Source: Candidatus Methanoperedens sp. (GTDB taxonomy: Archaea > Halobacteriota > Methanosarcinia > Methanosarcinales > Methanoperedenaceae). From it: DNA of 64,000 nucleotides. The notes under the pieces were generated by a model. It made no database searches. It was given only the letters and a program-made list of their open reading frames with translations, and was not told the origin of the DNA. The stretch lies in the NCBI GenBank assembly GCA_012026835.1, contig VEPN01000010.1, positions 1 through 64,000 of the forward strand, given 5' to 3'. The position numbers and the translations under genes are program-made. Positions 34,126-39,199 of the stretch are shown one piece after another. The first letter of the stretch is position 1, and each line of letters opens with the position of its first letter.

Positions 34126-35214
34126 ATGGAAACAGATAATTCGGGTTCATTTTTCAATTACCTCCCTGAAGGCTGCCGCCTTTGTTATAAAGGTGCAAAG
34201 ATGGTGCTGTTTGTAACAGGCGTATGCGGAAAAAACTGCTTTTACTGTCCTGTCTCATATGAAAGAAAAGAGAAGGACGTGGTGTTCGCAAATGAAAGAC
34301 CTGTTGAGAAAGATGAGGACGTGATCGAGGAAGCCCTTTCGATGGATGCGCTGGGGACAGGCATAACAGGCGGGGAACCGCTTTTAAGATTGGAGCGCGT
34401 GAATCATTATATCAAACTTCTAAAAAACAGGTTCGGCAAATCCCACCACATACACCTTTACACAGCGCTCGCGCCTGATAAGGAAATGCTTGGATCGCTA
34501 AGGAAAGCGGGTCTTGACGAGATAAGGTTCCATCCTCCCCAGGATATGCTGGCAAATATAGGCAGCACGCATTACAGGGAATCCATTATTGCAGCCCGCG
34601 AACTTGGCCTCTGTGCAGGTATTGAAATCCCGTCTATACCTAATGATTTTAGAGGTATTTTATTATTACTTGAAGAAGTAGAGGGCTTCCTGAACCTCAA
34701 TGAGCTTGAGTTCTCAGAAACAAACGCAACTGAACTGAGGAAACGCGGCTTTGCTCCTCTTAATGATATATCCTCTGCGGCATCAGGGAGCAGGAAGGCG
34801 GCAGAATCAGTACAGGGCAGTAAGGTTCATTTCTGCTCTTCCTCGTTCAAAGATGCCGTCCAGCTTAGGGAAAGATTAAAAAGGACTGCCAGGATGACAG
34901 CCCGGGATTTTGATGAGATAACAGAGGATGGGACGCTCGTCTATGGGATTATTGCGGGTAACTGCCTTGATATATTGAGAGATGCAGGAGTGACAGATGA
35001 TATGTACATCCTCTCAAATGAGTCTGTTGGGTCTGTTGGGTCTGTTGGGTCTGTTGGGTCTGTTGGGTCTGTTGGGCCTGTTGGGTCTGTTGAGACTGCC
35101 TGGTGGATAGCTGAGGACCTGGCTCAGGAACTGAAAGAAGCAGGATGCAGTGTTTCTGTGATAGAGAGATATCCTGTGAAGAACGGAATGATTGTTGAAA
35201 AGACGCCATTTTAA
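34126..35214 (+). CDS. Radical SAM protein (COG2108-like) with in-frame 9-base repeats
   Basis: The 362-aa protein starts with the archaeal COG2108 pattern CRLCYKGAKMVLFVTGVCG followed by KNCFYCP, giving the C-x3-C-x2-C cluster that cleaves SAM. TGGEPLLR is the glycine-rich SAM-binding strand. It is related to pyruvate-formate-lyase activases; the substrate is unknown. Between residues 300 and 323 a Ser-Val-Gly run is inserted, from a DNA minisatellite (separate entry). The gene follows the phosphatase by 23 bases. Confidence 0.85.
   Translation: METDNSGSFFNYLPEGCRLCYKGAKMVLFVTGVCGKNCFYCPVSYERKEKDVVFANERPVEKDEDVIEEALSMDALGTGITGGEPLLRLERVNHYIKLLKNRFGKSHHIHLYTALAPDKEMLGSLRKAGLDEIRFHPPQDMLANIGSTHYRESIIAARELGLCAGIEIPSIPNDFRGILLLLEEVEGFLNLNELEFSETNATELRKRGFAPLNDISSAASGSRKAAESVQGSKVHFCSSSFKDAVQLRERLKRTARMTARDFDEITEDGTLVYGIIAGNCLDILRDAGVTDDMYILSNESVGSVGSVGSVGSVGSVGPVGSVETAWWIAEDLAQELKEAGCSVSVIERYPVKNGMIVEKTPF
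35023..35094 (+). repeat. Eight-copy 9-base minisatellite inside the radical SAM gene
   Basis: The unit TCTGTTGGG is repeated six times perfectly (35023-35076), followed by one CCTGTTGGG (35077-35085) and one TCTGTTGAG (35086-35094). Each unit encodes Ser-Val-Gly, so copy-number change keeps the reading frame. It lies in a linker before the C-terminal part of the protein and is probably prone to slippage. Confidence 0.95.
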
Positions 35215-35858: not shown

Positions 35859-36068
35859 TTACACTCCCCTAACCTTGGTTCTCTTTTCCTTAATTTCTCT
35901 AAAAATGTCATCCAGACTCTCAGATAACCATTGAGAGCGCTCTTTAGTGTAGTCACCCCTTCCTAAATCAAAACTCTGGACGAACCTGACCATCCCTATT
36001 GGTCCCAAGGCTTTTGCAAGCACTTCCAGTCCCTCTTTTCTTATTTCATTGATGGTTTTAGCTTTCAT
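35859..36068 (-). CDS. Small protein coupled to a PIN-domain gene (possible antitoxin)
   Basis: The 69-aa charged helical protein (INEIRKEGLEVLAKALGPIG, ending EIKEKRTKVRGV) overlaps the upstream PIN gene by 11 bases. A small partner next to a PIN gene suggests an antitoxin, although here it follows rather than precedes the toxin. No DNA-binding motif was recognised. Confidence 0.65.
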   Translation of the reverse strand: MKAKTINEIRKEGLEVLAKALGPIGMVRFVQSFDLGRGDYTKERSQWLSESLDDIFREIKEKRTKVRGV

Positions 36069-36504
36069 TTTCGGTTATCTCCATCAGCCATCTGACTGGG
36101 TTTTCAACTCTAACCTTAATCAGGCTGTCATCCACCATAACCTTTTTCACGATCTCATCATCAGTTGTGAGCATAACCTCTGAAGATTTCTCAGCGCATG
36201 CAAGATGCAGGGCATCCAATGCTTTCAATCCAATATTTTCAAGTTCAGAAGCCCTTTTCAATATGCTTTCATTAACAGTCACTCTATGTCCTGAAATTGC
36301 AGCAAGAACCTTAACGCCGGTTCTTCTTTCATCATCAGGGATTTTAGAAATTTCATAATTTATAGCTTCACTCCCTACGAGCTCCCAATCATACAGACAT
36401 CTGTTTAATATCGCCAATACCGCTTCGGATTCAATCCTTATTCTATCTTGGCTTTGTTCATCAAAAGGTCTGTTCAGGCAGCAGACATCCATATAAATTC
36501 TCAT
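36058..36504 (-). CDS. PIN-domain protein (putative toxin)
   Basis: The 148-aa PIN-fold protein starts MRIYMDVCCLNRPFD (Asp6), with Glu in AINYEISKIPDD, then ALDALHLACAE and LTTDDEIVKK as the later acidic residues. It likely cleaves RNA. It is the first gene of a two-gene unit with the small protein downstream. ATG 36504 was used; upstream is A/T-rich promoter-like DNA. Confidence 0.82.
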   Translation of the reverse strand: MRIYMDVCCLNRPFDEQSQDRIRIESEAVLAILNRCLYDWELVGSEAINYEISKIPDDERRTGVKVLAAISGHRVTVNESILKRASELENIGLKALDALHLACAEKSSEVMLTTDDEIVKKVMVDDSLIKVRVENPVRWLMEITENES

Positions 36505-36642
36505 GAATAATTACTTCCATAGTGCTTACTATTAGATAATAATTTGCTTTTATATAATTCGATTTCCAGTGCCCCCTTTTATTTTATCAATAGGTAGAGA
36601 AACAAATGAACTTTAGCATCCTCATGCACCTGCGCGTGGATG

Positions 36643-36662
36643 CCCCCGACCTCGGTCGGGGG
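36643..36662. repeat. GC-rich perfect hairpin resembling IS200/IS605-family ends
   Basis: CCCCCGACC (36643-36651) pairs with GGTCGGGGG (36654-36662) around a 2-base centre, preceded by GGATG and followed by TAGTGACG. Very similar CCCCCGAC hairpins occur near the right ends of archaeal IS200/IS605/TnpB elements. No tnpA or tnpB lies nearby, so it may be a solo relic. The surrounding 322-base gap is otherwise GC-rich sequence unlike its neighbours, with no other gene. Confidence 0.45.
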
Positions 36663-36788
36663 TAGTGACGCGTGCCTCGAACCATAAGAAAGGATTATCG
36701 TCCATTCGCCAGGACAATCATGCCCCTGCCGTACCACCAGTGACGCAGGCAGATGAGAACGGCGCGCCCCGAATCATAGGGAGGCGAC

Positions 36789-36805
36789 CCTGCAAACCGC
36801 ACAGC
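36789..36805 (+). repeat. Left direct repeat flanking the MqsRA-like pair
   Basis: The 17-base CCTGCAAACCGCACAGC recurs at 37491-37507 with a single mismatch, in the same orientation. The two copies bracket the toxin-antitoxin genes at 36827-37415. They could mark the borders of an inserted cassette or a pre-existing duplicated motif. Confidence 0.55.
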
Positions 36806-36826
36806 GTCCTTATATAATAAGATACA

Positions 36827-37171
36827 TCAACTCACTATCTTGACTTCCAGCTTATCTTTATCCACCGGGAAAAGCTGGACTATAGATTTATAATGAATAC
36901 CAAGGAACTCCGCAATCTCCGGAGGAATCCTTATCACGAGGGAATTCCCGGATTTTGTAACAGATACCTTTCGCTCCAATCCGAAAATATTCTTCTTTTT
37001 AACCTCGGCCTCAATCTCTTTCATTGTATCCTGATCCAGATATTCTGAGCCGCACAAAGTACAAACTTCCGCATCTCTCAATCCAAAATTGATCCCAAAA
37101 AACTCCACTTCAACTTTTGATTTTTTTAATTCGCCTCCACAACTGCATTTATACGGAATTTCTTTATTCAT
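36827..37171 (-). CDS. MqsA-like antitoxin (YgiT zinc finger plus AbrB-like domain)
   Basis: The 114-aa protein has an N-terminal zinc-finger of the YgiT type (CSCGGEL and CTLCGSEYL) and a C-terminal AbrB-like segment (VTKSGNSLVIRIPPEIAEFL). This is the fold plan of antitoxins partnered with small mRNA interferases. It starts 4 bases after the toxin-like gene; the toxin-first order matches mqsRA. Confidence 0.85.
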   Translation of the reverse strand: MNKEIPYKCSCGGELKKSKVEVEFFGINFGLRDAEVCTLCGSEYLDQDTMKEIEAEVKKKNIFGLERKVSVTKSGNSLVIRIPPEIAEFLGIHYKSIVQLFPVDKDKLEVKIVS

Positions 37172-37175
37172 GTTA

Positions 37176-37415
37176 TCACCACAATTTTACGGTAACCGGA
37201 TATATCTTTCTTATTTCTTTATTTTTCAGTACTTGCTCATCATACACGATGCTAAAGAACCTGTAGAACGCTTCTATTAAACCTGTGTTCATTTGCATTG
37301 ATTTCTTCCCTTTGATAATAGCATCTTTCACTTCGTCCATCGATACCCCTCGCAGCCACATTCGCTCAATCGCATGTTTGCATCTTTTATGATTCCAATT
37401 AATTTTTAGTTCCAT
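37176..37415 (-). CDS. DUF4258-like small toxin
   Basis: The 79-aa protein (MELKINWNHKRCKHAIERMW ... SMDEVKDAIIKGKK) resembles DUF4258/RelE-fold mRNA interferase-type toxins, with a basic core and conserved His/Arg. ATG 37415 is preferred; the longer frame to 37520 adds 35 unlike residues that overlap the next gene. It is paired with the zinc-finger antitoxin just downstream. Confidence 0.75.
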   Translation of the reverse strand: MELKINWNHKRCKHAIERMWLRGVSMDEVKDAIIKGKKSMQMNTGLIEAFYRFFSIVYDEQVLKNKEIRKIYPVTVKLW

Positions 37416-37490
37416 ATGTATTATTCGTATTCTTCGTATTATTAATATTTTTGGGTCAATCATTGTACCCACACTATAACGAGAATGCAA

Positions 37491-37507
37491 CCTGCAAACC
37501 GCGCAGC
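37491..37507 (+). repeat. Right direct repeat flanking the MqsRA-like pair
   Basis: CCTGCAAACCGCGCAGC is the second copy of the 17-base repeat at 36789, differing at one base. It lies only 9 bases beyond the stop codon of the ruvA-linked gene, which suggests the toxin-antitoxin unit was inserted at the 3' end of that operon. Confidence 0.55.
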
Positions 37508-37516
37508 TTCGTGATA

Positions 37517-37948
37517 TCAATCCCCTTCAAACCTCTCAGACAGCAGCATTCCTTTTACCTCGAATTGTTTCTTTCTGTCCTTGAGCCCGGAAAGTTCAAA
37601 AAAAGATTCTGTTTTCCTGCCAGCTTTCCTGCGCCCGAATAATATTTGGCCGCCTTTCTCAAGGTATTCCTTATAAACGTCTTCGAACTGGTCCTTTTCT
37701 TCATCATTTAACTCGATGGTGGATACATTGCCTGAAAGCTGGTTCAGTACCTTGAGCACATGAACCTTTCGCATACGCTTGAGTTCGCCCGCATCCACCA
37801 TTCCAGGGGTGATATAGACACTTTTGTTTAACTTAGGAGACCAGGCTACGGTCTCATCTGTTATTTCGATGAACGCTATTGGTACATACTCGCCAGGTTT
37901 GGGCTTTATGAAGTGCTTGATAAGCCTTTTTTCAATTTCGGGCAACAA
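37517..37948 (-). CDS. Conserved-looking hypothetical protein coupled to ruvA
   Basis: The 143-aa soluble protein is rich in charged residues (FIKPKPGEYVPIAFIEITDE, LNDEEKDQFEDVYKEYLEKG). I do not recognise the family. It begins one base after the ruvA stop, so it is translated from the same message and may act in recombination. There is no signal peptide or membrane segment. Confidence 0.7.
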   Translation of the reverse strand: MLPEIEKRLIKHFIKPKPGEYVPIAFIEITDETVAWSPKLNKSVYITPGMVDAGELKRMRKVHVLKVLNQLSGNVSTIELNDEEKDQFEDVYKEYLEKGGQILFGRRKAGRKTESFFELSGLKDRKKQFEVKGMLLSERFEGD

Positions 37949-37949
37949 A

Positions 37950-38534
37950 TCATTCCTTTATTTTCAAGAGAGCGGCTTTTATCAGCGCCTCTACTGTAGG
38001 TTCTTTCATTCTTTGCGATACGGCCTCCACTGCTTCCTGAGCCCTCTTTTCAGGGAAACCAAGCGCAGTAAGGGCGCTCACAGCATCATAATTGATGCTG
38101 CTCTGGGGATATCCTTTGAAGCTTTCCATTTTCTTTTTTATCTTGTCCCGAAGCTCAAGGATAAGCCTTTTGGCGTTTTTTTGCCCTACCCCGGAAATAC
38201 GGGTCAGGACTTTTTCATCTTCATGGATTATGGCAACAGCAAGTTCTTCAAGCCGTATCTGGGACATGATGTTTAAAGCGGTCTGCGGCCCTATTCTTGT
38301 CACACTTATCAGCAGCTTGAACATCTCAAGCTCGTTCTCGCTGGTAAATCCATACAGTGTAAGTGCGTCTTCTCTTACATTGAGATACGTAAAAAGTTTT
38401 ACTTTCCCTTTCTTATCCGCAAGTTCCTGCAATGTCGGCTTGCCTACGTTCACGTGGTATCCGATACCCCCGACATCGATTACAATAAAACCTTCGCCCT
38501 GATGCGCTACCTCGCCGCAGATATGTGATATCAT
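37950..38534 (-). CDS. ruvA: Holliday junction DNA-binding protein RuvA (bacterial type)
   Basis: The 194-aa protein matches bacterial RuvA in length and motifs. The N-terminal OB fold is ISHICGEVAHQGEGFIVID ... YLNVREDALTLYGF. The helix-hairpin-helix pairs are LISVTRIGPQTALNIMS and LTRISGVGQKNAKRLILEL. The C-terminal RuvB-binding domain includes AVSALTALGFPEKRAQEAV. RuvA tetramers hold four-way junctions for the RuvB motor. RuvB is not in this window. It is unusual in archaea, which normally use Hjc/Hje. Confidence 0.92.
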   Translation of the reverse strand: MISHICGEVAHQGEGFIVIDVGGIGYHVNVGKPTLQELADKKGKVKLFTYLNVREDALTLYGFTSENELEMFKLLISVTRIGPQTALNIMSQIRLEELAVAIIHEDEKVLTRISGVGQKNAKRLILELRDKIKKKMESFKGYPQSSINYDAVSALTALGFPEKRAQEAVEAVSQRMKEPTVEALIKAALLKIKE

Positions 38535-38616
38535 AGCACCGTCCCATTATTATTGTTAAATCGTTTCATAGATGTCTATACGTTTTGATATATTTTAAAT
38601 TATTTGAAACATTATT

Positions 38617-38636
38617 ATAATCATAATTATGATTAT
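38617..38636. promoter_or_regulatory. Perfect 20-base A/T-rich palindrome between ruvC and ruvA
   Basis: ATAATCATAATTATGATTAT reads identically on both strands. It lies 83 bases upstream of the ruvA start and 93 bases past the ruvC stop. A TATA-like run (TTTAAAATATATC on the minus strand, about 38600-38588) stands between it and ruvA. The position suits an operator or upstream activator site for ruvA; the binding factor is unknown. Confidence 0.45.
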
Positions 38637-38728
38637 TATTTTAATGGATAAATATATAACACATACGATTGTATATGGGCTGGGGGAAGATGGGAGTGGG
38701 TTTACCTCCAGAAATTAACAAAAAAAGC

Positions 38729-39199
38729 TTATTTTTGCCAGTTAATATGGCATAAAGCGATCGAAAGGCCATCGGCAGCGTCATCAGGTTTGGGTATATC
38801 ATCAAGCTTGAGCAGATTCCGTATCATCTCCTGCATCTGCCTCTTATCGGCACGGCCCGAACCGGTAATCGCCTGCTTCACCTGGGCAGGAGTATATTCA
38901 AATAAAGGAATATGCCTTTGCTGGGCTGCAAGAAATATGACGCCTCTTGCTTCGCTCACACCCATCGCCGAGGTAACGTTCCTTGTGAAAAACAGTTTTT
39001 CGACCGCTATATTGTCGGGCGCATACTTCTCAAGCAACTCATTTATTTCGGTATATATCTCCAGCAGGCGCTGCGGGGTTCTTTTATCTCCTGAAGTCCG
39101 GATGCAGCCGTAGCTTAAAGGAATGATGCTGTTTTCATAAGTCTCAATTACACCAAAGCCGACAGTTGCAAGTCCGGGGTCGATCCCTACAACAATCAT
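38729..39199 (-). CDS. ruvC: Crossover junction endodeoxyribonuclease RuvC (bacterial type)
   Basis: The 156-aa resolvase has the catalytic acids in VVGIDPGLATVGFG (Asp near 6), IAVEKLFFTRN (Glu) and KPDDAADGLSIALCH (two Asp), matching the D-E-D-D set of RuvC. It cleaves Holliday junctions. ATG 39199 fits the family start; the longer frame adds 38 residues reading through the promoter. It is in the same orientation as ruvA, 194 bases upstream of it. Confidence 0.93.
   Translation of the reverse strand: MIVVGIDPGLATVGFGVIETYENSIIPLSYGCIRTSGDKRTPQRLLEIYTEINELLEKYAPDNIAVEKLFFTRNVTSAMGVSEARGVIFLAAQQRHIPLFEYTPAQVKQAITGSGRADKRQMQEMIRNLLKLDDIPKPDDAADGLSIALCHINWQK

Follow-up and report, generated by a model that had tools for sequence, protein, structure and literature searches.

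The genes ruvC and ruvA lie on a common strand, 194 bp apart, in the stretch of 64,000 nucleotides analyzed here (the window), which comes from a draft genome of Candidatus Methanoperedens sp. An additional open reading frame, ORF3, follows ruvA immediately:

38729-39199, (-): ruvC, Holliday junction endonuclease, 156 aa, ATG start (NF000711)
37950-38534, (-): ruvA, Holliday junction binding subunit, 194 aa, three domains (TIGR00084 and Pfam)
37517-37948, (-): ORF3, protein without assigned function, 143 aa, TTG start, 1 bp after ruvA

A preliminary description of the window had recorded two co-oriented genes for full-length, bacterial-type proteins with intact motifs, and profile searches bore this out. 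RuvC scored well above the equivalog cut-off of NCBIfam NF000711 (224.3 bits, cut-off 163), covered positions 1-155 of the 161 in that model, matched Pfam RuvC at 180.5 bits and could be aligned almost end to end with the Escherichia coli protein (1hjr). The equivalents of E. coli D7, E66, D138 and D141, which we take to be the four catalytic positions of this RNase H-like fold, were all kept. The list of open reading frames gives an upstream GTG start (39313, 194 aa), while homologue alignments begin at the ATG at 39199. RuvA was similarly complete (TIGR00084, 203.8 bits, cut-off 85), aligned with 7x7q and 1ixr, and showed an OB-fold N domain, a helix-hairpin-helix domain and a C-terminal RuvB-contact domain, each above its Pfam cut-off (RuvA_N PF01330, 77.1 bits; HHH_5 PF14520, 54.0 bits; RuvA_C PF07499, 45.1 bits).

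No ruvB was found within the 64-kb window, as also stated in the preliminary description. A search of the whole assembly (G000; 3.32 Mb, 116 contigs, 99.82% complete, 1.13% contamination) yielded a single RuvB above cut-off, full length and located on contig C64 (6712-7749, + strand; TIGR00635, 451.5 bits, cut-off 299.05), with the C-terminal winged-helix domain PF05491 present (82.4 bits). The accompanying search for hjc, proposed at the same time, gave no PF01870 match anywhere in this genome, and hence no Hjc beside ruvCA; in control genomes the same profile had matches in Methanocaldococcus jannaschii, Haloferax volcanii and Sulfolobus acidocaldarius, and none in Methanosarcina acetivorans.

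On its other side ruvC is flanked by an adenylate kinase gene in the opposite direction, beyond which genes for an EMC3-like membrane protein, a cytidylate-kinase-like protein and a Cbf5/TruB-like protein were recognized by eye. ORF3 had been described as a third protein coupled to ruvA. It matched no Pfam or NCBIfam family above cut-off, and homologues in 32 of 34 Methanoperedenaceae genomes indicate that it is a real gene; its adjacency to ruvA, however, was limited to the present genome and G273 among the 30 loci read (L302-L331), which rules out a general coupling. Elsewhere its neighbours, assigned by eye, were nucleoside deoxyribosyltransferase-like, FMN-reductase-like, Mch-like and ThiI-like genes. 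ORF3 is thus best treated as a neighbour of ruvA in those two genomes, and not as an established part of the Ruv system. Its fold, predicted from two sequences, had a pLDDT of 38.0. Small open reading frames 3' of ORF3 on the same strand (35859-37520) may form toxin-antitoxin pairs: a PIN-type toxin lookalike and its partner lie at 36058-36504 and 35859-36068, and a MazE-type protein (36827-37171) stands alongside another small frame. A run of GSV repeats (approximately 35000-35110) was also seen near the C-terminus of a radical SAM protein (34126-35214).

Distribution and phylogeny of RuvABC in Methanoperedenaceae

RuvC and RuvB_C were each detected in 31 of the 34 Methanoperedenaceae genomes. 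The three genomes without a RuvC or RuvB match were all less than 70% complete, and every one of the 21 good genomes (at least 90% complete, at most 5% contaminated) carried both proteins. The genes, first taken for the oddity of one archaeon, are therefore a feature of the family, and they also occur in many Methanomicrobiales. In 16 of the 18 other family genomes that were fetched (exceptions G272 and G258), ruvC, ruvA and ruvB lay on a single contig within about 6 kb, and the order ruvC-ruvA-ruvB was found in many relatives. Genome G273 resembled the present one, with ruvC, ruvA and ORF3 adjacent and ruvB on a separate contig.

The nearest relative of the window, an uncultured archaeon (L103), showed 95% identity in RuvC and shared the adenylate kinase, TruB-like and ORF3 neighbours. 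Records at 72-76% identity were named Methanoperedens, Methanoperedenaceae, ANME-2 or Methanosarcinales; those at 61-70% were mostly Methanomicrobiales, and were followed at 46-55% by 48 bacterial loci, 35 of them Chloroflexota (NCBI rank), from a pattern scan that is biased to the query. In two family genomes, G257 (L248:1436-4479) and G250 (L249:1493-4517), an ORF3 homologue, a queA-like gene and a bacterial-type tgt-like gene lead directly into ruvC. Transfer of queA-tgt-ruvCAB as one block was weighed and set aside, the arrangement being confined to these two genomes among the archaeal loci fetched.

Quick trees were built from 90 RuvC rows (leaving out the partial proteins of L140 and L145), 58 RuvA rows and 37 RuvB rows. 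In all of them Methanoperedenaceae and Methanomicrobiales formed one clade together with G191, a genome from a neighbouring family (SH-aLRT 100, 99 and 98 for RuvC, RuvA and RuvB, respectively), and further archaeal groups were made up of families f12, f18 and f8/f26. Constraining all archaeal rows together was not rejected in any of the three trees (AU p 0.709, 0.517 and 0.269), and the trees neither establish nor reject one common origin for the RuvC proteins of all archaea. RuvB_C was present in all ten bacterial controls and in none of four archaeal control genomes. Taken together with the finding that only 35 of the 246 phylum genomes have RuvA and RuvB above cut-off, this makes an old transfer from bacteria the likeliest origin of RuvABC, with no specific donor placed by the trees. 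Chloroflexota were considered as donors in view of their share of the bacterial loci, but the trees gave them no supported join with the archaeal clade, and the scan bias noted above affects that share. Of the earlier proposal that the genes were acquired from bacteria, a deep bacterial origin thus appears likely, while a recent acquisition is contradicted by the shared archaeal clade.

Resolvase types across the phylum and the dHjc family

Junction resolution is usually described domain by domain, with RuvABC in bacteria and Hjc in archaea. In an even draw of 246 genomes of the phylum, strong matches to the Hjc profile (> 100 bits) were found in 87 genomes and weak matches only in 24, the latter (PF01870 < 100 bits) not being scored as canonical Hjc. 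Many of the weak matches were proteins of 150-195 aa in Methanomicrobiales lacking RuvC. These belong to a divergent Hjc-like family, here called dHjc, for which a profile was built from an alignment of 13 rows (A1). Residues E5, R27, D39, E54 and K56 were invariant, and the catalytic set E5, D39, E54 and K56 (E, D, ExK) was present in 13 of 13. The profile matched 84 of the 246 genomes, including 32 of 32 in family f2 of our order and 9 of 9 in f4 of our class, and none of the 34 Methanoperedenaceae genomes.

Three dHjc members were compared with the known models. Two of them scored 21.9 and 19.4 bits against the Hjc equivalog NF040854 and the third had no match, all below the cut-off of 70, and the family was therefore named Hjc-like rather than Hjc; against PF01870 (gathering score 21.1) the three reached 23.9, 21.9 and 19.6 bits. 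Profile-profile alignment with canonical Hjc (hhalign) gave a probability of 86% (E 5e-6), with coinciding E, D and ExK positions. A search of PDB sequences with the dHjc profile returned nothing credible (one row, E 0.58). Structure was addressed through a viral relative (L362), not a cellular dHjc, whose model (pLDDT 80.1, pTM 0.81) retrieved Hjc, Hje or RecU, the last also named PrfA or PBP-related factor A, in all of rows 1-32 of 593 in Foldseek, and superimposed on Archaeoglobus fulgidus Hjc (2wiw) with Z 11.4 and rmsd 3.0 over 119 aligned residues. Ten viral contigs (L362-L371) encode relatives of dHjc, some of them by genes that look by eye like phage portal, head-morphogenesis or HNH genes. 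The dHjc locus was fetched for 11 Methanosarcinaceae-type genomes of f2 (L351-L361, L381), and in all 11 the gene lies at most 50 bp upstream of archaeal recJ, which fits a role in recombination; the two loci read from f3 lack this adjacency.

The resolvase types were distributed as follows:

Canonical Hjc only: 87/246
dHjc only: 81/246
RuvC with RuvA and RuvB: 32/246
RuvC without RuvA or RuvB above cut-off: 34/246
RuvABC and dHjc: 3/246
No type: 9/246

Exactly one of canonical Hjc, dHjc and RuvC was thus found in 234 genomes, two in three and none in nine, and canonical Hjc occurred together with dHjc or RuvC in 0 of 246. RuvA and RuvB exceeded their cut-offs in an identical set of 35 genomes, every one of which had RuvC. 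A RuvC match in G026 (19.4 bits, below cut-off, with one internal stop) was not counted. Among the 159 genomes without canonical Hjc, RuvC and dHjc nearly always excluded each other (Fisher p 1e-30, a value inflated by relatedness), and the two were exchanged within families f6, f14, f17, f23 and f25 and within genera g15 and g45. The one-type rule has exceptions, since the nine genomes without any type include G112 (99% complete), G051 (94%), G058 (93%) and G203 (91%); two of the nine, G112 and G118, have a weak PF01870 match only.

RuvC as the only Ruv protein above cut-off, the state of 34 genomes, was noted for families f8 and f26 (e.g., L276 and L278-L281), and all four catalytic acids were present in the five proteins read. 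The presence of RuvC therefore need not imply a full RuvABC complex. A distant RuvB-like protein scoring 182.8 bits (cut-off 299) is encoded in one f8 genome (G133:C86:26522-27412, L277), whose lineage otherwise has no RuvAB, and in a genome of f12 (G009:C1:602448-603360) RuvB is split over two overlapping frames, as if by a frameshift or a sequencing error.

Among the loci read from Methanomicrobiales, cfbA (NF033198) and the gene for methanogenesis marker 9 (TIGR03277) usually flank dHjc; in G212 the marker 9 gene adjoins dHjc and cfbA was not seen within the stretch. The marker 9 gene was found in 28 of 29 genomes asked (absent in G148), each time with cfbA at most 1.2 kb away. At this site dHjc was intact in G131 and G182, both without RuvC, and in G232, which has RuvABC. 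In G153, also with RuvABC, it was decayed, the lysine of the ExK motif being replaced by T and a conserved arginine by W, with the frame broken afterwards. Three genomes retained scraps: G158 had 41 residues from the N-terminus (E 5e-6) and 15 from the C-terminus (E 1e-5), and G033 and G003 had C-terminal residues only (E 0.001 and 0.002, weak taken singly). No trace of dHjc at E 0.01 was found at the site in 21 of 28 genomes, all of them RuvC-bearing. Overall, the site could be located in 26 RuvC-bearing Methanomicrobiales, and in 25 of these dHjc was lost, truncated or decayed.

The ruvCAB genes had no common neighbourhood across the Methanomicrobiales families compared, except in one Methanolinea/Methanoregulaceae group. 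The contrast between a conserved dHjc site with scraps and scattered ruvCAB sites indicates that in Methanomicrobiales RuvABC most likely arrived where dHjc was already resident. Genome G232 points the same way, its RuvCAB being nearest to f24 (up to 83.7%) and less similar to f6 (71.6-78.9%), while its dHjc and host marker resemble those of f6; yet a single f6 clade for RuvCAB was not rejected (p 0.103). Elsewhere the host-marker and RuvCAB trees agreed, both splitting f14, so vertical descent also contributes. G068, which had no RuvABC proteins in the loci used, was left out of the RuvCAB trees, and the long branches G148 and G242 were left out of the second.

Proposed resolvase replacement, alternatives and known systems

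In the RuvABC system, RuvA holds the four-way junction open, RuvB rings pump its arms and RuvC cuts two opposed strands. The genes described here encode a complete bacterial-type resolvasome, divided between the window (ruvC and ruvA) and another contig (the relocated ruvB), which would be expected to work in this way. The ancestor of the Methanoperedenaceae would have carried this ultimately bacterial system, the Hjc-type enzyme having since gone, and RuvABC would have taken over the job of the archaeal resolvase. That RuvABC of bacterial origin stands in for an Hjc-type resolvase in this line is, in our assessment, quite probable, given genes that are present and intact, the absence of canonical Hjc matches from the present genome and of dHjc from all 34 family genomes, and the nearly complete exclusion across the phylum. 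The search covered Hjc, dHjc and Ruv proteins, and RuvC need not be the sole junction nuclease beside possible Hef or other XPF-type enzymes.

For the phylum as a whole we lean, with reservations, towards a wider interpretation: Halobacteriota would use any one of three interchangeable resolvases (Hjc, dHjc or RuvC), and a bacterial-derived RuvABC operon would have moved repeatedly between methanogen lineages, displacing dHjc in place, with the replacement complete in Methanoperedenaceae. Displacement, and not chance loss, would then be the cause of the exclusion, and its steps may be in view as genomes with both systems intact (G232, G191), a decayed dHjc (G153), scraps (G158, G033, G003) and no trace (the 21 genomes above). 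A serious rival, which we regard as possible although it convinces us less, is that the ancestor of Methanosarcinia and Methanomicrobia had both RuvABC and dHjc, and that each lineage lost one redundant system at random with no later invasion. The tolerance of the trees for one clade of all archaeal RuvC, the agreement of RuvCAB and host-marker trees for several groups, and the coexistence of both systems in G191 and G232 are in line with it. It demands a long coexistence, however, which only 3 of the 246 genomes display, and it leaves aside both the dHjc remains at a conserved site in RuvC-bearing genomes and the lack of a shared ruvCAB neighbourhood outside one subgroup; the f24-like RuvCAB of the f6-like G232 also speaks against it, with the qualification given above.

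The exclusion could, in turn, reflect shared ancestry, with RuvABC an accessory repair system and Hef, another XPF-type nuclease or a further enzyme doing the housekeeping. Relatedness does inflate simple exclusion tests, the search was confined to Hjc, dHjc and Ruv proteins and would have passed over Hef-type nucleases, and Hef and Hjc reportedly define alternative pathways in Haloferax, to judge by the title of a study. We nevertheless consider this improbable, as RuvC and dHjc are exchanged inside the families and genera named above, dHjc decays in place where RuvC is present, and RuvC and RuvB are kept in nearly all Methanoperedenaceae genomes. The occurrence of bacterial-type genes in a 116-contig draft might also be read as a bacterial contaminant contig, which the preliminary description had named as a possible refutation, or as a recent gain by one archaeon. 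This we count as refuted: L103 has the same neighbours, the genes recur throughout the family, including all of its good genomes, all three trees nest them within the family's own group, and their GC content (0.473 for ruvC and 0.456 for ruvA) is close to that of the window (0.443).

Interpreted as replacement, the data present one phylum as a set of natural exchanges between RuvABC and an archaeal resolvase, including double carriers and a broken resident copy, through which the exchangeability of resolvases with unrelated folds becomes testable in living archaea. They also name dHjc as a likely resolvase for the genetically tractable Methanosarcina, in which the Hjc family model had found no match in the M. 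acetivorans control.

Among openly licensed papers, searched by titles and the starts of abstracts and thus weak evidence of absence, none was found on RuvC/Hjc exclusion, dHjc or RuvABC of Methanoperedenaceae. Archaeal ruvABC as such is already known, being mentioned in passing for a Methanoregulaceae draft genome in 2019 in a passage that states its absence from Methanosphaerula palustris (PMC6498233). That case resembles ours in being archaeal and in concerning a family within the Methanomicrobiales group that shares our clade; it differs in that the passage gives neither distribution nor tree and does not connect ruvABC with an archaeal resolvase having been lost. With bacterial RuvABC (NF000711/TIGR00228, TIGR00084, TIGR00635) the present system shares all three proteins above the equivalog cut-offs, with catalytic residues and domains intact, and is set apart by its archaeal host, its distinct archaeal clade and the location of ruvB on another contig in G000 and G273. 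Compared with Hjc/Hje and RecU (PF01870, NF040854; PDB 2wcw, 1gef, 1zp7), dHjc has the acidic and ExK positions in common and its viral relative the fold, while dHjc differs in scoring at most 21.9 bits against the equivalog cut-off of 70 among the three members tested, and in never co-occurring with canonical Hjc in the 246 genomes.
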